Positions 115 to 8,741 of a DNA stretch of 64,000 nucleotides are shown here, in pieces. Within the stretch, counting starts at the first letter, position 1. Each line of letters begins with the position of its first letter. Below the pieces are notes generated by a model. That model searched no databases and had not been told where the DNA came from. It was given only the letters and a program-made list of their open reading frames with translations. The DNA comes from Natrinema salsiterrestre (GTDB lineage Archaea; Halobacteriota; Halobacteria; Halobacteriales; Natrialbaceae), in assembly GCF_029502005.1 (NCBI RefSeq), contig NZ_JAMQOT010000012.1:1-64000 (forward strand). Direction: 5' to 3'. A program made the translations under genes and the position numbers.

Positions 115-484
115 CCGAATACAGATGGTCGGCATAGTTAGCGATGTAAAGTGTCGTCGTCCACTGCTCGCCGACCCGTGCGGCTCGCGTTTCCCACTCG
201 ACAGCTCCGGGCGCGGTGACGGTCTTGTGCGACTCGGAGATGTCGTCGAGGAGCTTGCGTTCGGCCTCGCCTTCTTCGAGTGTCTCCTCGTCGAGGACAT
301 CGGTAAAGTCCACGTCTGGTTCATCATCCGCAGTGAAGCGGTCCCAGAGGTACTTACTGCCGACGCCAAGGCCGAGACCCACTGCAAGGGCAAGTACTGC
401 ACTCTCTGCTGGCGTCAGATTCTGGAGCCACCCGGCGACGGAGCCAAGCGCGCCACCACCAGTCTGGAGGAGCACGTTACGCAT
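38..484 (-). pseudogene. VirB4/TraC-like conjugation ATPase, N-terminal remnant
   Basis: From the ATG at 484 the product begins with a glycine-rich segment and one hydrophobic helix (about residues 22-42). An acidic stretch follows, then VEWETRAARVGEQWTTTLYI, which resembles the start of haloarchaeal VirB4-like ATPases. After about residue 120 the sequence changes to unrelated residues and stops at 38. All Walker motifs are missing, so no ATPase can be made from this copy. It overlaps the end of the next gene by 8 nt, as expected of a conjugation operon. The family call rests on remembered similarity plus context. Confidence 0.55.
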
Positions 485-1598
485 CGTGTGGGTCCTCCCG
501 GCGCGAGTGGCCGATGATCGATTGGTTGCGAACCACACGCTCCGCCTCGTCGTAGTCGTGTTCGCGGCCGTTCCAGAAGTCCATATTCAGGACGAACAGC
601 TCGACCGTGCTGAGGCGGCGTGCGGACCACCCCGACGCCTGCTGTATGAGTTCGGATCGCACGTCGTTCACGCGACTGTCGAGCTTCTCGAACATCTGCG
701 CACGTCTTTCGACGTCGGTGAGGTCCTCGCGGCGGGTGACGAACGGGTTGAACAGGAACCCGATGACGGGGAACTGCGTCAGCTTCTCGGCAGGGGTGCC
801 CTCGTCACGGAAGCGGTCGTATACTTCTATCGGGCTGACTTCAACGCCGATGTAGTACCGGACCTGCTGAATGCCCCGGTCACGCATCTCCTTCGGCCGT
901 GTTTCCCGATATTCTTCGAGGAGTTCCCGGAAGATCGGGTTCTCCGTGACGTCTTCGTCAGTGAGGCGCTCCTCGATGGTCTCGGTGATCTGCTCCACCG
1001 GAAATGAACGGGTTGTGGCGTGGAGTTTGAGCTTCGAGTCCAGCTCTTTGTTGGCGAACTCCTCGCCAGCGTCCTGGAGCTGCGCCCAGTCGTCGGACAT
1101 CGCGAAGTCCATGTTGGCCGGATCGATCTCGATGAACGCCTCCATCGAGCCGTCTTCACGCTGGATGGCACCAGCGCCCGGCCACGCTCGCTTGATGTTC
1201 GTGAGGTCTTGCGTTCGCTCGTCGGGCTTGAATGGCGTGTAGTTCGCGAGTCCGCCCTCGTTGCGCTCTGACTCGTTGGTACTCGTGTCGGCGTCGGCGG
1301 GCGCACTGAACGTGACCTGAGGCCGTTTGAGGTACCGATAGACGTCTTTGGTCCACGTCCAGGCGTTCAGGTGGGTTGGTGAGACGTAGATGACGGCAAC
1401 GCCAAAGCCAAGCCCGCCAGCAACGAACGGGAGGGCCAGTGATTCGATCCCGGTGAGCCCCGCGATAAACAGCCCAATAATGGGGAAGGCGATGAGCATA
1501 CCGACGTCCCCTTCCTCGATATTGAGATACGGGATGCGACTCTCCTCGCCGAACTGATCCATGATGCGCCGTGCGGCCGCGTCTTGATCTGCTGACAT
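477..1598 (-). CDS. PrgI/VirB3-like conjugation membrane protein
   Basis: 373 residues. A short cytoplasmic lead is followed by two close hydrophobic helices (about residues 32-72), then a long soluble acidic domain containing NIKRAWPGAGAIQREDGS and a C-terminal helical region. Two helices near the N-terminus plus a soluble domain, directly beside a VirB4-like gene, fit the PrgI/VirB3 inner-membrane part of type IV secretion systems, which anchors the VirB4 ATPase. The ATG at 1598 lies 2 nt after the stop of the upstream VirB6-like gene, so the genes are almost certainly co-transcribed. The name is by architecture and neighbourhood; no catalytic motif was seen. Confidence 0.6.
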   Translation of the reverse strand: MSADQDAAARRIMDQFGEESRIPYLNIEEGDVGMLIAFPIIGLFIAGLTGIESLALPFVAGGLGFGVAVIYVSPTHLNAWTWTKDVYRYLKRPQVTFSAPADADTSTNESERNEGGLANYTPFKPDERTQDLTNIKRAWPGAGAIQREDGSMEAFIEIDPANMDFAMSDDWAQLQDAGEEFANKELDSKLKLHATTRSFPVEQITETIEERLTDEDVTENPIFRELLEEYRETRPKEMRDRGIQQVRYYIGVEVSPIEVYDRFRDEGTPAEKLTQFPVIGFLFNPFVTRREDLTDVERRAQMFEKLDSRVNDVRSELIQQASGWSARRLSTVELFVLNMDFWNGREHDYDEAERVVRNQSIIGHSRREDPHDA

Positions 1599-1600
1599 AG

Positions 1601-2716
1601 TTAGTGAATCCCTCGGTCAAACTCCATCCCGCTGTCGTCACTCGCCGATTCCGCTGTCGCTCCACCTGGGTCATTCTCTGTTCGACGGTACGACGGCGTC
1701 CCGCCATCGTCTCCTCCATGTCCACCGCGGGCAGCCGCTTTTTGCGCGACGGCGTGGCCAGCGGCGGCTTTCGGCCCCCACCGAGCGGCGGTCGTCGCGA
1801 CGCCGGAGCCAGCAAGGTACCCACCGGCGGCGACACCGCCGACGAGTGCTGCGCCTTTCGTCGCACCGCCGACGACTTTGGCCGTCAGCGGAGTCGCGTA
1901 TTTGAACGTCTTCCACGTGATGTAGAGGGCGACCAGTGGGAGGGACGCCGCGACGAGATATTTGAGGAACGCTGTTCCCGGTGTGAGCGTCCCACCGGAG
2001 TAGATCAAGTCGTACCCCTTGAGGACCATCGCTGCGGGAAGCGGGAGGACAGCCAACGGGACAAACCGTTTGCAGAACCCCATCGCGATATCGGATACGA
2101 CCGGAATGTTTCCGTAGGCCAGTGCAAATGCAATCGGCATTCCGTACAGGTAGACATAGAGCAGAATCATCCGGATGTAGAACAGCGCCTCCAGCGCCCA
2201 CATCGAGATTCCACCAATCACGGCGAACAATAGCCCCAGTCCGGGGTTTGTGATGGATACTTCCAAGAATCCAATCATCGCCTCCGTAACCGAGGAAAGC
2301 TCCGGCATCAGGGCGATAGTGAATCCGTCAACGAGGTAGAGTGCAAGAGTGCCAACCCAATACCACGTAATGATTAGAAAAGCACCGACCCAGGCCGTCT
2401 TCTTCGTTTTTCGGGCTTCGTAGGTACTTCCAATATTGAAGATCCGAACCGTGTGACGGCCCTGAACGCTCATCACGAGGAGCAAGAGGGCAACCAGCAT
2501 GATTTCGCCGCCGATGAGAGCATCGTGAATCGCTGGCCAGGGTGCATTGGTTGGTTCACCGAAAACAAAAGCTCCGTTCGTCTCTGGAGTAGGTGTCCCG
2601 AACATTCCCTCAGTCAGAGTTTCATACCCTGATCTGAGACCGTCCATGAACAGCCCAATGAACCACTCAACGACGCCCTTGATACCCTCAAGGACGACAT
2701 CAATGAGATCGACCAT
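1601..2716 (-). CDS. VirB6/TrbL-like polytopic conjugation protein
   Basis: 371 residues with about seven hydrophobic helices between residues 70 and 290. A Gly/Ala-rich C-terminal tail (GGATKGAALVGGVAAGGYLA) is followed by a charged, disordered end. A polytopic core with a low-complexity tail is typical of VirB6/TrbL, which form the membrane channel of type IV secretion systems. It sits between a VirB3-like protein and a Tat lipoprotein with gaps of 2 nt on each side. The assignment is inferred from topology and operon position. Confidence 0.6.
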   Translation of the reverse strand: MVDLIDVVLEGIKGVVEWFIGLFMDGLRSGYETLTEGMFGTPTPETNGAFVFGEPTNAPWPAIHDALIGGEIMLVALLLLVMSVQGRHTVRIFNIGSTYEARKTKKTAWVGAFLIITWYWVGTLALYLVDGFTIALMPELSSVTEAMIGFLEVSITNPGLGLLFAVIGGISMWALEALFYIRMILLYVYLYGMPIAFALAYGNIPVVSDIAMGFCKRFVPLAVLPLPAAMVLKGYDLIYSGGTLTPGTAFLKYLVAASLPLVALYITWKTFKYATPLTAKVVGGATKGAALVGGVAAGGYLAGSGVATTAARWGPKAAAGHAVAQKAAARGGHGGDDGGTPSYRRTENDPGGATAESASDDSGMEFDRGIH

Positions 2717-3557: not shown

Positions 3558-5294
3558 CTATGGGTTCCGTTGGAAGATGTCTTCTGGACCGAGCATTCGG
3601 AGGAGCCGCTTGCCAGCGTAGAACATCACAATGAACGGGATGAGCTGCCAGCCAACCTCGAAAATGAACGCGAACCAACCGTCGATGGTGCCGAGCGGAT
3701 GCCAGCGAGCAGTAGCCGTCGCACTCACATACGCGGGGTCGTGCCCGAGCCACGAACCTGGATGGTACCGAGCCGTGTAGATACCCGGCTCGTCGATCGT
3801 CACAATCGCCACCCCGGAGGCGTTGGTCTCGACGCGTTGCTCCGCGATGGTGATGTAGCCGTTGCGAGTGGTCCCGCCGATTGGATATCGTCGGTCGGGA
3901 TCGCTGAGCACGATCGGGGCGCCGGTCTCGTTATCCCGGAGTTCGATGCGGAGTGTGGCCTGACTTTCGTTCTGCTGGATCACCTCAACAGTCAGATTAC
4001 TGCGCCGGAGCTGCCGCTCAGAGCCAGCGTCAGGTGCCACAATCGAGGCGTTCACACCCCGTACGATCCCCGCTACCTGGAGCGCGTTGCGGTCGACGGT
4101 CTCCGCGCGAACTGCGACGCCGTACGTCGTCGTGTACGACTGGTTGACGAGGTCGATGTTGATGTTCTCACCGAGAGTGCCGTCCGGAGACGGTCGGTCA
4201 GTGCCCCAGGTGTCGATGATTTCTGGGCCATCGCGAACTGGTTCGGCACGCGGGCCGATCCGTGATGGATATGCATGGACGTACACAGGGATCGCATCCG
4301 ACTCGACGGTGGCGCTGTCGGTCCGGTTTGACCTGACGAGTGTATCCCAGTTGGTGTTCCGGGCGGTGTAGAACCGCCAGACGCCACGCACTCGTGCGCT
4401 TCCATTCTCCGTCAGCGTGTACCCCTGCCACGGCCGGGACTGGAAAATGGCGACACCAGCGTCACCATTGGGATACTCGGCGTAGTAGGGGTACGCAGAG
4501 AGGTCGTAGATCTCGACGGCGATCGAATCCGAGACGTTGAGCGATTCGGTACGATACGTGACCTCGACATCGGTCTCGTCGCCTCGGTCGATTCGCGTGG
4601 TCTTCTTCAGCCGGACGCTGATTTCGGCTTCAAGCGTAAGGTTTGCACTCCAGTCATCCTCAATCTGGTAGTCGAGGGCCGGCGTGTGCGAGCCGTCACG
4701 CTCGACGATGGTTTCGCTGTCCTTCTTCAATCGAACCTCCTCGACCTCGTAGCTCGTGAGCGACCACTCGATCGTCGTGTTCCCCGAAGAGCTTCCGTTC
4801 GGGACGCGAACGCGATAGTCGACGAACCCCCGCATCGTGCCGTTCGGCGCGATATAGAGCGGGGTTTCACCCGACTCCAAGTGACCTCGCGTCGACGGCT
4901 GCACTGCGAACACCGTGGCGTGGGCGTCCTCGATGAACACCCCGTCTTCGAGCGACGCGTGGCGCGGATGCACAGACGTATCCGACCCACCGGGTTCGAG
5001 ATCAGCGAAATCGTTTCGCGTCCACGTTGCAGCTGTCTCCGGCGGGCGCGTGAACGTGATGTCTGTCCCGTTTGCGAGTTGGTGCATCGCGGTCCGGCTC
5101 TCGCCGTAGCGCTGCTGGTACTCCTCCTGGCTGATGTAGTTGTCCGCGTCGCGAGACCACAGCGTCGCTGATTCATTCTCAGTGAGTCCATTCCCCTCCG
5201 TGCCTGGCCGTGGCGGGCTTGCAGTAACGAGACCCGTGACTAGGCTCGTCACGAACAGGGCGGCCATTAGCACGGAGAGCTCTCGTTGTTTCAT
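3558..5294 (-). CDS. Large surface protein of the conjugation cluster, single C-terminal anchor
   Basis: 578 residues. A Sec-type signal peptide (MKQRELSVLMAALFVTSLVTG) precedes about 480 residues of beta-rich extracellular sequence containing many N-x-S/T sequons. One transmembrane helix lies near residues 545-565, with a short basic tail (GKRLLRML). A strand-rich segment before the anchor (about 430-530) resembles an Ig-like domain. Surface exposure and N-glycosylation are inferred from the signal and sequons. It sits between the lipoprotein and the VirB2-like gene, so an adhesin or mating-pore role is possible but unproven. Confidence 0.65.
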   Translation of the reverse strand: MKQRELSVLMAALFVTSLVTGLVTASPPRPGTEGNGLTENESATLWSRDADNYISQEEYQQRYGESRTAMHQLANGTDITFTRPPETAATWTRNDFADLEPGGSDTSVHPRHASLEDGVFIEDAHATVFAVQPSTRGHLESGETPLYIAPNGTMRGFVDYRVRVPNGSSSGNTTIEWSLTSYEVEEVRLKKDSETIVERDGSHTPALDYQIEDDWSANLTLEAEISVRLKKTTRIDRGDETDVEVTYRTESLNVSDSIAVEIYDLSAYPYYAEYPNGDAGVAIFQSRPWQGYTLTENGSARVRGVWRFYTARNTNWDTLVRSNRTDSATVESDAIPVYVHAYPSRIGPRAEPVRDGPEIIDTWGTDRPSPDGTLGENINIDLVNQSYTTTYGVAVRAETVDRNALQVAGIVRGVNASIVAPDAGSERQLRRSNLTVEVIQQNESQATLRIELRDNETGAPIVLSDPDRRYPIGGTTRNGYITIAEQRVETNASGVAIVTIDEPGIYTARYHPGSWLGHDPAYVSATATARWHPLGTIDGWFAFIFEVGWQLIPFIVMFYAGKRLLRMLGPEDIFQRNP

Positions 5295-5322: not shown

Positions 5323-5745
5323 CTACCAGGGGGCGAGGTCGACGCACTGCGCCAGCGGGAGGTTCATCATCGACCCAGCGACGGTGTAGAGTGGTCCGAG
5401 GGCGACGAGGACGACCGCAGACTTCATCGCGGAGCGCTTGTGGCGCTTGAGTCCCTTCTTCTGGTCGGGCGTGATCGTGAACATCTCGATGAGGGAGTCG
5501 GCCTGCCACACGACTGCGAGGCCGACAATACCCAGCGCTGTGGTAAGCTGGAAGAAGCCCTCAATCATACCCGGGAGGTTGTCCGCGCTACAGACGGCGT
5601 TCGTCTGTGCGGCGGCGGGTTCCACAGCGAACAGGCTCAAGAAGACCACGATGAGCGTGGCCTGTCTGGGGATCCTACTCGCCGCCGTGGACTGGCTGTC
5701 GGCGCGATTCGAAGCTGTCTCGGAGGGCGTATTGTCCTGTGACAT
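5323..5745 (-). CDS. VirB2/TrbC-like small membrane protein
   Basis: 140 residues. A long polar N-terminal leader precedes a hydrophobic signal helix (about 29-46) ending near AAAQT. Two further hydrophobic helices (about 63-83 and 110-128) are separated by a short basic loop (DQKKGLKRHKRS). This leader plus two helices with a basic loop is the architecture of VirB2/TrbC pilin-like subunits. Two Cys flank the mature part (AVCSADN and AQCVDLAPW) and might form an external disulfide. Placement in the conjugation operon supports the call; sequence similarity alone would not. Confidence 0.55.
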   Translation of the reverse strand: MSQDNTPSETASNRADSQSTAASRIPRQATLIVVFLSLFAVEPAAAQTNAVCSADNLPGMIEGFFQLTTALGIVGLAVVWQADSLIEMFTITPDQKKGLKRHKRSAMKSAVVLVALGPLYTVAGSMMNLPLAQCVDLAPW

Positions 5746-5751
5746 AGCGGG

Positions 5752-6000
5752 TTACTCCTCTGCGTCGTCGACGAGTGCTTTGAGATCGGCGTAGCGATTG
5801 GTCTCTTCGACGATTTCTTCTTTCGTGTAGCCCTGTTCGCGGGCCCGTTCGAAGAGATCTCGAAGCTCGTCAGGGTCGACGTCGCGAAGCTCCATCTCGT
5901 CTCGGAGGGCGCGGCGATAGAGGGCGGAACCGTTGATATGGCTGTTCCACGTCAGATACAGATCATCGATGTCTTCGATGGTGACTGCCCGTGTGATCAT
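5752..6000 (-). CDS. Small acidic protein, first gene of the conjugation operon
   Basis: 82 residues from the ATG at 6000; another ATG at 6021 would add seven residues. The product is soluble, helical and acidic, with no membrane segment (ELRDLFERAREQGYTKEEI). It is the promoter-proximal gene of the minus-strand operon and precedes the VirB2-like gene by 6 nt. A role in regulation or assembly is conceivable but nothing in the sequence identifies it. Confidence 0.6.
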   Translation of the reverse strand: MITRAVTIEDIDDLYLTWNSHINGSALYRRALRDEMELRDVDPDELRDLFERAREQGYTKEEIVEETNRYADLKALVDDAEE

Positions 6001-6103
6001 ATGTGCGGGGTGGGTATGCACCGGTTGAGCCCCGGTCCATGGTGGTGCGATAGCTAGAAGATCGGTATATGCTTTCTGGCCACCAACTGGCGCAAAAATC
6101 TAA

Positions 6104-6203: not shown

Positions 6204-6407
6204 CTACTCGAGTTCCACGACGTCTCCACGCCCGTTGTCGAGGATTTCTCGCACCTCGGCCAAGAGTTCCCGACCTTCCTCGTGGAGCCTTGTACCTTCA
6301 TCGAGGCCACACTCGTCCGCATCGAGCTGCTCAATGATTTCTTCGACACGGGTCAGCCGGTCATGGATCTCTTGATCGTTTGCCACGCTTAGATCACCCC
6401 CAGCCAA
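6204..6407 (-). CDS. xseB: Exodeoxyribonuclease VII small subunit
   Basis: 67 residues forming two acidic helices (IHDRLTRVEEIIEQLDADEC and LHEEGRELLAEVREILDNGR), the coiled-coil hairpin of XseB subunits that wrap around the XseA coiled coil. The ATG at 6407 overlaps the end of xseA by 19 nt; a GTG at 6386 would follow it by 2 nt. Either way the pair is translationally coupled. Exonuclease VII degrades single-stranded DNA from both ends. Confidence 0.8.
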   Translation of the reverse strand: MAGGDLSVANDQEIHDRLTRVEEIIEQLDADECGLDEGTRLHEEGRELLAEVREILDNGRGDVVELE

Positions 6408-7432
6408 AGCCCAGTGATGACCAACAACAGCAACAGCAGCACAGCGATTGCGGTCTTGTAGTAGACCGGCGGGAGGCCCTCGGGTGCGGCCGCCTCGTCG
6501 ACAGCTTCGACGAGTTCCTGTTCGTGTTCGTGCTCCTGCTGGAAAGTTTCGTACGCAGCCTCGAGTTGCTGCTCCAGCGGTTCGACCTCACTCGCAAGGA
6601 ACTCCTCGCGAGAACTCACGATATACTCGCCGGCGGCGGTCGGCGTGATCGTCGCGACGTCCGCCACCTGGTCCGCGATGAGCCGGTCATCGGTGTGTCC
6701 AATCGCGGTGACTACGGGGGTATTGGCGGTGAAGATCGCCTCCGCGACCCGCTCGGTGTTGAAGGCTTGGAGGTTGGAATCACTCCCACCGCCGCGGCCG
6801 ACGATGATCGCGTCGACGTCCTCCGAGCGGTCCAGATGGTGGATGCCGTTCGCGATGGACGTCGGCGCCTCCGATCCCTGGACGGTTGCGTCCTTCACTA
6901 GGATGTCGACGGTTGGATCCTGCTCGTGGATCGCGTTCTGGATGTCGTACCGGGCGTCTCCTCGGAGAGAAGTGACAACACCGACTCGCTCCGGGAACGC
7001 CGACGGGCGCTGTTTCTGTTCGTCGTCGAACCAGCCACGCTCTTCGAGTTCGCTTCGTAGTCGCTCCACGGCAGCCGCCTGGTCGCCGTCGCCGACGACG
7101 ATCACTTCCCACGGTTTGAGGTCGATTTTCCCACCTTCGACCCAGTACTCGATATCGCCCTCGAGGATGACCTCGGTTCCGTCTTCGAGTTCGGCGTCCA
7201 TATCCCGGTAGCGGTTCGCCCAGATCATACAGGGGAGCTCGGCTTCGCCATCCGTGAGCGTAAAATAGAGCGCAGTACTGTTTTGGTGGAGATCGGTAAC
7301 TTCTCCGATACAGCGGACACTGTGGAGGGCAGACGTTTCTTCGATAGCCGATGCAATCCGCTCGTTCAGCTCCTGCACTGAAAGAACATCCCCGGAGCGA
7401 ACTTCATCTCCCTCGCGTTCAGCATCAGCCAT
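6389..7432 (-). CDS. xseA: Exodeoxyribonuclease VII large subunit with a C-terminal membrane helix
   Basis: 347 residues. An OB-fold DNA-binding domain (about 15-110) is followed by the catalytic domain with AFPERVGVVTSLRGDARYD, the IIVGRGGGSDSNLQAFNTE loop and GHTDDRLIADQVADVATITP, all typical of XseA. The usual long coiled coil is shortened to about 40 residues (LASEVEPLEQQLEAAYETFQ). The chain ends in a very hydrophobic helix (about 325-345) where bacterial enzymes are soluble, so this nuclease may be membrane-tethered. It lies upstream of and overlaps xseB, and downstream of the tbp gene. Confidence 0.85.
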   Translation of the reverse strand: MADAEREGDEVRSGDVLSVQELNERIASAIEETSALHSVRCIGEVTDLHQNSTALYFTLTDGEAELPCMIWANRYRDMDAELEDGTEVILEGDIEYWVEGGKIDLKPWEVIVVGDGDQAAAVERLRSELEERGWFDDEQKQRPSAFPERVGVVTSLRGDARYDIQNAIHEQDPTVDILVKDATVQGSEAPTSIANGIHHLDRSEDVDAIIVGRGGGSDSNLQAFNTERVAEAIFTANTPVVTAIGHTDDRLIADQVADVATITPTAAGEYIVSSREEFLASEVEPLEQQLEAAYETFQQEHEHEQELVEAVDEAAAPEGLPPVYYKTAIAVLLLLLLVITGLWLGVI

Positions 7433-7516
7433 CGATCCGACTTAAAAAGTGAGTAGGAGAGACAAAAATGTACTCCCAGTGGCGGCGCCTCCGACGACCT
7501 GGTTTGAGTCCCCAAA

Positions 7517-8077
7517 TCAGTCCAGTAGCCCGAGATCGTTGAGCTGGTCTTCGATCTTCGTGAGGGCTTGTTCGGCGTCATCAAGTTGCTTGCCGCCAGT
7601 GATGACGAGCTTCCCACTGCCAAAGAGGAGCGCGACGACGTCCGGATTGTCGAGCCGGTAGACGAGTCCGGGGAACTGTTCGGGTTCGTATTCGATGTGT
7701 TCGAGCCCCAAGCCGATAGCGATGGCATTCAAATTGAGTGTGTGGTCGAGGTCGCCACTTGAGACGATATTCTGGATTTCAATCGCCGGAGAAGCAGCGA
7801 CATCGACGCCCAACTCGCGGAGTTCGTCGAAGACGTGCTCAAGGGCGGTCGTAACGTCGTCAACGCTTTTCGCACCTGTACAGACGACTTTCCCCGAGCG
7901 GAAGATGAGTGCTGCGGCTTTTGGATCGTGCATCCGATACACGAGACCAGGGAAGTTATCGGGATCGTAGTCGGTCGCCCCTAGGTCTTCGGAGAGCGTT
8001 TCAAGATCGAGTTCCTGGCCGATATCGGACGATGCAACCACGTTCTCAACTTGAATTGACTCGGTTGTGACACTCAT
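7517..8077 (-). CDS. tbp: TATA-box binding protein (TBP)
   Basis: 186 residues made of two imperfect direct repeats of about 90 residues, the TBP saddle. Each repeat carries the FPGLVYR and SGKVVCTGAKS / SGKLVITGGKQ signatures. It recognises TATA boxes and recruits TFB and RNA polymerase. Haloarchaea often hold several TBPs, with extra copies on plasmids that favour subsets of promoters; this copy sits beside a histone-fold gene and exonuclease VII. No tfb gene is visible here. The acidic C-terminus is intact. Confidence 0.95.
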   Translation of the reverse strand: MSVTTESIQVENVVASSDIGQELDLETLSEDLGATDYDPDNFPGLVYRMHDPKAAALIFRSGKVVCTGAKSVDDVTTALEHVFDELRELGVDVAASPAIEIQNIVSSGDLDHTLNLNAIAIGLGLEHIEYEPEQFPGLVYRLDNPDVVALLFGSGKLVITGGKQLDDAEQALTKIEDQLNDLGLLD

Positions 8078-8152
8078 AGCTGTACCTTCCAGTCACGAAC
8101 ATCTTAAAACAGGGAGTGAATTCGAGCAGAGGGATAGTTCGTTCCGAGCGAC

Positions 8153-8320
8153 CTAGAGATCGCGGGGCTGGACAGTTTTCCGATCGTTTGCCTCGGCACG
8201 CCGGGCTGCATCTTGGAGCACTTCAGTTACCTCATCGTCCAGCGCCTCGTAGAAATCCGCCGAGACGTTGTGGTCATTGAGCGCTTCTTTCACGGCCGAT
8301 TTGACGATCAGGTCTGCCAT
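8153..8320 (-). CDS. Small histone-fold (DUF1931-type) DNA-binding protein
   Basis: 55 residues from the ATG at 8320; a longer frame to 8356 is open but adds atypical residues. The sequence (VKSAVKEALNDHNVSADFYE ... VLQDAARRAEANDRKTVQPR) matches the short haloarchaeal DUF1931/histone-fold family, with the C-terminal NDRKTVQPRDL typical of histone folds. It probably binds DNA as a dimer. It is transcribed in the same direction as tbp. Confidence 0.75.
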   Translation of the reverse strand: MADLIVKSAVKEALNDHNVSADFYEALDDEVTEVLQDAARRAEANDRKTVQPRDL

Positions 8321-8447
8321 ACGCAGCGACATTTCTCCCGTCCTCTGTATAAACATACAGGTATCTGATTCAGTATCTGTGGGGTTTTACTGCGCTTTGA
8401 GGGGCAACAGACGTATGCGATAGTGCTTCGTATCAGTGAGCGGGACG

Positions 8448-8741
8448 ATGTACGACCTGACCGGCTTCCAGCGCGACCTCCTGTACGTGATCGCTGGCCT
8501 CCAGGAACCCCACGGCCTCGCCATCAAGGAGGAACTCGAGGATTACTACGAGAAAGAGATCCATCACGGACGACTTTACCCGAATCTCGATACGCTCGTC
8601 GAGAAGGGCCTCGTCGAGAAAGGCGAGAAAGACCAGCGGACGAACGTCTATACGCTCACGCGGCGCGGCCGCCGTGAAATCGAAGCCCGCCGTGAGTGGG
8701 AGCATCAGTACATCGAGATTGGAGAGTCTGCGCCTGCGTAG
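8448..8741 (+). CDS. PadR-family transcriptional regulator
   Basis: 97 residues. The winged helix begins LTGFQRDLLYVIAGL and contains the typical PadR recognition region (HHGRLYPNLDTLVEKGLVEK) and wing (DQRTNVYTLTRRGRREIEAR). A GTG at 8436 could add four residues; the ATG at 8448 matches the family start better. PadR proteins usually repress a nearby gene in response to a small molecule. The gene is divergent from the tbp cluster and faces the SHOCT gene; its target is unknown. Confidence 0.85.
   Translation: MYDLTGFQRDLLYVIAGLQEPHGLAIKEELEDYYEKEIHHGRLYPNLDTLVEKGLVEKGEKDQRTNVYTLTRRGRREIEARREWEHQYIEIGESAPA

Follow-up and report, generated by a model that had tools for sequence, protein, structure and literature searches.

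A haloarchaeal exonuclease VII with a predicted C-terminal membrane anchor, encoded at the head of a conjugation operon

Exonuclease VII (ExoVII) degrades single-stranded DNA from both ends and has been studied as a soluble repair nuclease, with the C-terminal barrel of its large subunit, XseA, as part of its assembly. In the E. coli enzyme, this barrel is the dimerisation element, whereas the small subunit, XseB, decorates the long XseA coil. Bacterial ExoVII is also reported to clear trapped gyrase complexes (PMC12004951, which cites Huang et al. 2021). With respect to DNA transfer, the conjugation-derived archaeal systems Ced and Ted (PMC9905601) share VirB6-, VirB4-, and pilin-type parts with the system described here, and some Ted loci adjoin genes encoding the DNA-processing proteins HerA and Rad50. 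However, exonuclease VII is not mentioned in the available sections of that paper, and the haloarchaeal TrbL_3 systems constitute a separate family. In the open-licence literature, we found no published report of a tail-anchored XseA variant, and no paper dealing jointly with exodeoxyribonuclease VII, haloarchaea, and plasmids.

The window analysed here, a stretch of 64,000 nucleotides from Natrinema salsiterrestre (contig NZ_JAMQOT010000012.1, positions 1 to 64,000), carries at 6389..7432 (-) an uninterrupted ORF of 347 aa encoding the ExoVII large subunit in a putative tail-anchored form. A previous sequence-only reading had located this gene correctly, without stating its strand. As expected for XseA, an OB fold (around residues 15–110, 7103..7390 (-); PF13742 at residues 17–106, AlphaFold (AF2) strands at 39–115) is followed by the PF02601 catalytic domain (around residues 111–275, 6608..7102 (-)). 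The Pfam match to PF02601 (176 bits) covers only profile positions 1–172 of 315, and the NCBIfam match to TIGR00237 (284 bits) covers positions 1–289 of 389. A phmmer comparison with E. coli ExoVII H238A (PDB 8txr) gave an E value of 8e-43, and E. coli ExoVII was the top structural match as well (Z 26 over 324 residues), although the rmsd of 16.1 means that the two structures differ in how their domains and helices are arranged with respect to one another, so this alignment backs the fold and not the assembly. Residues D163, R213, H246, and D249 align with D155, R205, H238, and D241 of E. coli, which we take to be the catalytic residues of XseA. All four positions were invariant in 64 of 64 aligned XseA, in agreement with the normal catalytic domain described in the sequence-only reading. 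The likeness to E. coli XseA thus includes the OB and catalytic fold, the catalytic residues, and the xseB partner, but at the C-terminus the E. coli protein has a long coil and a barrel, with no hydrophobic tail, in contrast to the coil of around 53 residues and the predicted membrane helix of the window protein.

The window XseA ends in PPVYYK-TAIAVLLLLLLVITGLWLGVI, in which 21 uncharged residues (327–347, 6392..6454 (-)) follow K326, overlapping an AF2 helix at 322–346; this corresponds to the approximately 20 very hydrophobic C-terminal residues noticed earlier. The Kyte–Doolittle maximum of the tail reaches 2.94 over 19 residues, compared to values of 0.87 or less in the remainder of the protein, where no further hydrophobic segment is found. 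As a value of 2.5 was also reached in 134 of 20,000 randomisations in which the entire protein was shuffled, the shuffle test is weak by itself, and the case for the tail rests on its conservation. Of 102 haloarchaeal XseA frames, a count that leaves out a small barrel-type haloarchaeal group, 97 carry the tail (Kyte–Doolittle 2.69–3.67), and the five tailless frames were truncated, frameshifted, or decayed genes. The maximum among 37 barrel-type control XseA was 0.92. The hydrophobic C-terminal helix noticed from the sequence is thus confirmed as a conserved feature.

Further support was obtained from a set of 40 non-redundant tail-type proteins, with a mean net charge of -37, in which the uncharged C-terminal run spans 19–26 residues and all 40 have K or R as their last charged residue ahead of it. 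In strongly acidic proteins such as these, a K/R flank is the sequence signature of a positive-inside (N-inside) tail anchor, which would leave the enzyme in the cytoplasm. The window XseA shows the features of a tail-anchored protein, with one predicted helix within around 30 residues of the C-terminus and a positive flank. Between subclades, the tails diverge strongly in sequence (ITGLWLGVI, LLGYIFIL, GAALVVLLLI) and retain their length of 19–26 uncharged residues. Within the window clade, dN/dS was lowest in the catalytic domain (0.064) and amounted to 0.113 in the OB fold, 0.137 in the stalk, and 0.147 in the tail, the last value being similar to that of the OB fold, and essentially all the replacements in the tail preserved its apolar character. 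As judged from these substitution patterns, the tail is under purifying selection, which together with the 97 conserved frames rules out chance or a sequencing artefact as its origin. Membrane tethering of haloarchaeal XseA is thus well supported as a prediction from sequence. Given that the barrel is known from the E. coli structure as a dimerisation element, the tail that replaces it could instead be a hydrophobic oligomerisation helix acting as its substitute in cytosolic XseA dimers. This we consider very improbable, as a C-terminal run of 19–26 uncharged residues, invariably with K or R just ahead of it, is what is expected of a tail anchor, and such a stretch would be prone to aggregate in the cytosol.

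Between the catalytic domain and the putative anchor lies a short helical stalk (residues 275–321, 6470..6610 (-)). The AF2 model of the window XseA (mean pLDDT of 87) presents a helix of 40 residues (275–314), a Gly/Pro break at EGLPP, and then the separate helix 322–346, whereas in the model of one long-stalk relative a single continuous helix (288–410) runs from the catalytic head into the membrane segment. The distance from core to tail is around 53 residues in the window XseA, compared to 73–211 in other tail-bearing haloarchaeal XseA, in line with the shortened coil that had been noted. In addition, the stalks of tail-type proteins tend to a hydrophobic period of 11 residues and the coils of barrel-type proteins to periods of 7 and 22, which may reflect a difference in the geometry of the coil.

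Scanning of genome contigs yielded 63 loci with relatives of the window XseA in many haloarchaeal genera, many of them on plasmids or plasmid-sized contigs. Nearly all the copies that could be read through carry the same tail; one copy at a contig end (L058) has an altered C-terminus, and the remaining tailless copies are broken or run off the contig edge. The loss of the helix in relatives located near the same genes would have spoken against the sequence-only reading, and the intact relatives within the conjugation operon have the tail. More distant haloarchaeal XseA (around 33–39% identical) have a membrane-helix tail of very different sequence and longer stalks. In contrast, XseA of methanogens and other Halobacteriota share the enzyme core, with around 31–39% identity to the window XseA, but retain the barrel: 30 XseA from non-haloarchaeal Halobacteriota showed the C-terminal barrel motif (SPLAILERGYSI...VGD...DGEA and variants) and no hydrophobic tail. 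The bacterial copies read to the end, one from E. coli and three from the phage collection, likewise had the usual barrel and no such tail. The window XseA thus lacks the canonical architecture of a long coil plus a C-terminal barrel, and because its matches to PF02601 and TIGR00237 end early and the tail replaces the barrel, it corresponds to a variant XseA architecture and not to the canonical form. A handful of genomes from this order (L093–L096), most of them small, have a barrel-type XseA in place of the tail-anchored form.

In a tree built on the OB and catalytic core, all tail-type XseA grouped in a single clade, with a long stem and 100/100 support, so one change to the tail suffices to explain them. 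Three groups were distinguished within this clade: a first one of short-stalk, conjugation-linked XseA, including that of the window; a second one of around 390–460 residues, including copies that adjoin ADP-ribosylglycohydrolase genes; and a third one of around 380–500 residues in varied settings, the last two being joined with weak support (89/52). From sequence comparison, haloarchaeal ExoVII is thus predicted to have lost the C-terminal barrel and gained a tail anchor in its place. Because every subclade has the tail, with or without conjugation genes, the anchor is a trait of the entire haloarchaeal XseA clade, and the idea of a tail peculiar to conjugation copies was discarded. A viral origin of the tail-type XseA was also ruled out, as no haloviral XseA was found in IMG/VR or the phage collection, which contained only bacterial-type XseA. 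If a barrel-less clade placed at the membrane is confirmed, the barrel would be dispensable, and the influence of assembly on activity could be studied in a naturally occurring case.

As for the genetic setting, xseA is followed by the small-subunit gene xseB (60 aa, 6204..6386 (-), PF02609 with 38.6 bits), whose GTG start at 6386 lies 2 bases past the xseA stop. The TTG start of a longer ORF (6204–6407) is probably not the real one, because homologues are also of 60 aa, including the xseB of pNG600, which begins after the end of xseA. The order xseA-xseB was conserved in 32 of 32 tail-type loci checked. Beyond xseB, the operon continues with small ORFs, an exported protein of 578 residues, a lipoprotein-like protein, TrbL_3, and a further membrane protein. 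In the window, the small ORFs include a conserved one of 89 aa with no Pfam family (5752..6021 (-)), present in most T4SS subtype I loci, and a conserved one of 140 aa (5323..5745 (-)), signal-peptide-like and probably with two membrane helices, which could be a VirB2-like pilin, its match to TrbC/VirB2 being below threshold (13.4 bits, cut-off 27.9). The exported protein (3558..5294 (-)) has a C-terminal membrane segment and no Pfam family, and appears in both T4SS subtypes. The VirB6-type channel protein TrbL_3 is encoded at 1601..2716 (-) (PF19590, 464 bits), and the membrane protein, of 373 aa, at 477..1598 (-). In plasmid pNG600 of Haloarcula marismortui, the counterpart of the latter is followed by VirB4-like and VirD4-like ATPases. 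These components, TrbL_3 in the window and both ATPases in the homologous pNG600 cluster, identify a conjugative type IV secretion system, the two ATPases being known from the pNG600 counterpart because the window contig stops short of their positions. Elsewhere in the same genome, there is a second TrbL_3 gene (G000:C1:20267-21256), and no XseA was found on that contig.

The transfer operon comes next in 38 of the 39 intact window-type loci of the genome-contig set with at least around 4 kb downstream, although many of these 38 are closely related and hence not independent. The conjugation cluster that the sequence-only reading had seen beside xseA is thus a conserved transfer operon headed by this gene. 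Transfer genes were absent downstream of two window-type copies (L044 and L126). Comparison of the two operon subtypes (L062–L074 and L123 versus L030–L057; window 6204–8741 region) showed only 23–38% identity between their transfer proteins, but 85–87% between their XseA, where the drop in identity is concentrated past approximately residue 260, and around 57% between their XseB. The difference between XseA and the transfer proteins points to an exchange of xseA among these systems. In the opposite direction, only 42 of the 150 TrbL_3 genes listed have an xseA gene no farther than 12 kb away; xseA is therefore not essential to TrbL_3 transfer systems, so XseA is an optional yet recurrent front gene of their operons. 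Decayed window-type copies are numerous (L006, L011, L083, L085–L090, and Halobacterium salinarum megaplasmids), indicating that xseA is frequently lost; some of them adjoin intact transfer genes.

The long-type copies are found in other settings. No listed TrbL_3 gene was located within 12 kb of any of around 46 such copies. A type IV coupling-protein homologue was noticed near some of them (L160, L168, and L174), but in a wider sample one was present within around 10 kb in only 7 of 40, with neither distance nor orientation conserved, which ruled out conjugation as the setting common to all subclades. Their neighbours are replication genes, ADP-ribosylglycohydrolases, transposons, and ordinary chromosomal genes. 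An ADP-ribosylglycohydrolase gene directly adjoins long-type xseA in L097, L105, L124, L181, and L185 (PF03747, 264 bits in the last), among others; 5 of the 40 long-type loci sampled had a homologue within 10 kb, as did several plasmids. The fixed link to conjugation, together with the short stalk, is thus confined to the window subclade, and because the anchor is retained in subclades outside conjugation operons, conjugation alone cannot explain it. Consequently, of the tethered ExoVII serving DNA transfer that had been proposed from the sequence, the helix and the operon stand, whereas a causal link between tether and conjugation is not supported, given the long-type tails elsewhere.

This distribution is also what gives weight to the main rival explanation, in which the anchored ExoVII serves haloarchaea in general DNA repair and is carried as plasmid or island cargo, with a membrane role unrelated to transfer, for example clearing proteins from DNA ends, and with one subclade captured by a conjugation operon. 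The anchor appears in all subclades, chromosomal and non-conjugative settings included; only 108 of 391 sampled genomes had an XseA above the cut-off, leaving around 72% with no good XseA, as for an optional cargo; and the removal of trapped gyrase complexes by bacterial ExoVII (PMC12004951) is an activity of this kind. On the other hand, the slot ahead of the transfer genes has been retained in the window subclade across two T4SS subtypes whose proteins are only 23–38% identical, which suggests a tie to transfer, and we regard the cargo explanation as possible but rather unlikely.

Our preferred reading is that of a tail-anchored ExoVII with a cytoplasmic head and a membrane-embedded C-terminus, which in the window subclade, where xseA-xseB front a conjugation operon, would most likely act as an accessory to DNA transfer; we hold this reading to be probable, the evidence for the transfer role being the conservation of the operon. 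The OB fold and the putatively active catalytic head would be carried in the cytoplasm on the helical stalk, the last 21 residues would enter the membrane as a single helix in place of the canonical barrel, and the co-produced XseB would presumably be bound to the stalk, despite its shortness. Given the anchor and the lead position in the operon, its site of action is probably the inner membrane face, where it would trim single-stranded or protein-capped DNA ends beside the transfer channel. Such a task at the channel seems plausible by analogy with the trapped-gyrase removal reported for bacterial ExoVII (PMC12004951). The more specific scenario, in which the barrel-to-anchor swap made ExoVII membrane-tethered in haloarchaea and one branch was then recruited to trim transferred or relaxase-linked strands at the channel, is put forward only tentatively. 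The tail-anchored XseA is also a candidate for the processing of DNA during conjugation in haloarchaea, where little is known about how the DNA is handled.

A position at the membrane would also suit an exclusion or defence nuclease that degrades single-stranded DNA entering from rival conjugative elements; the gene is plasmid-borne and mobile, and CRISPR, Argonaute-like, or restriction genes occur in the vicinity of some xseA copies. However, xseA of the window subclade sits inside the transfer operon and not among defence genes, and the DNA of its own element would require protection, making this function improbable.

Finally, some genes were observed on the other side of xseA. Its immediate upstream neighbour in the window encodes a TATA-binding protein (7517–8077 (-)) and is retained in some subtype I loci (93–96% identical) but absent from others. 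A small histone-fold-like protein is encoded at 8153–8356 (-), with sub-threshold matches to Histone and archaeal histone families, and a gene of this type is found upstream of xseA in most window-type loci, frequently accompanied by a PadR regulator encoded on the other strand.
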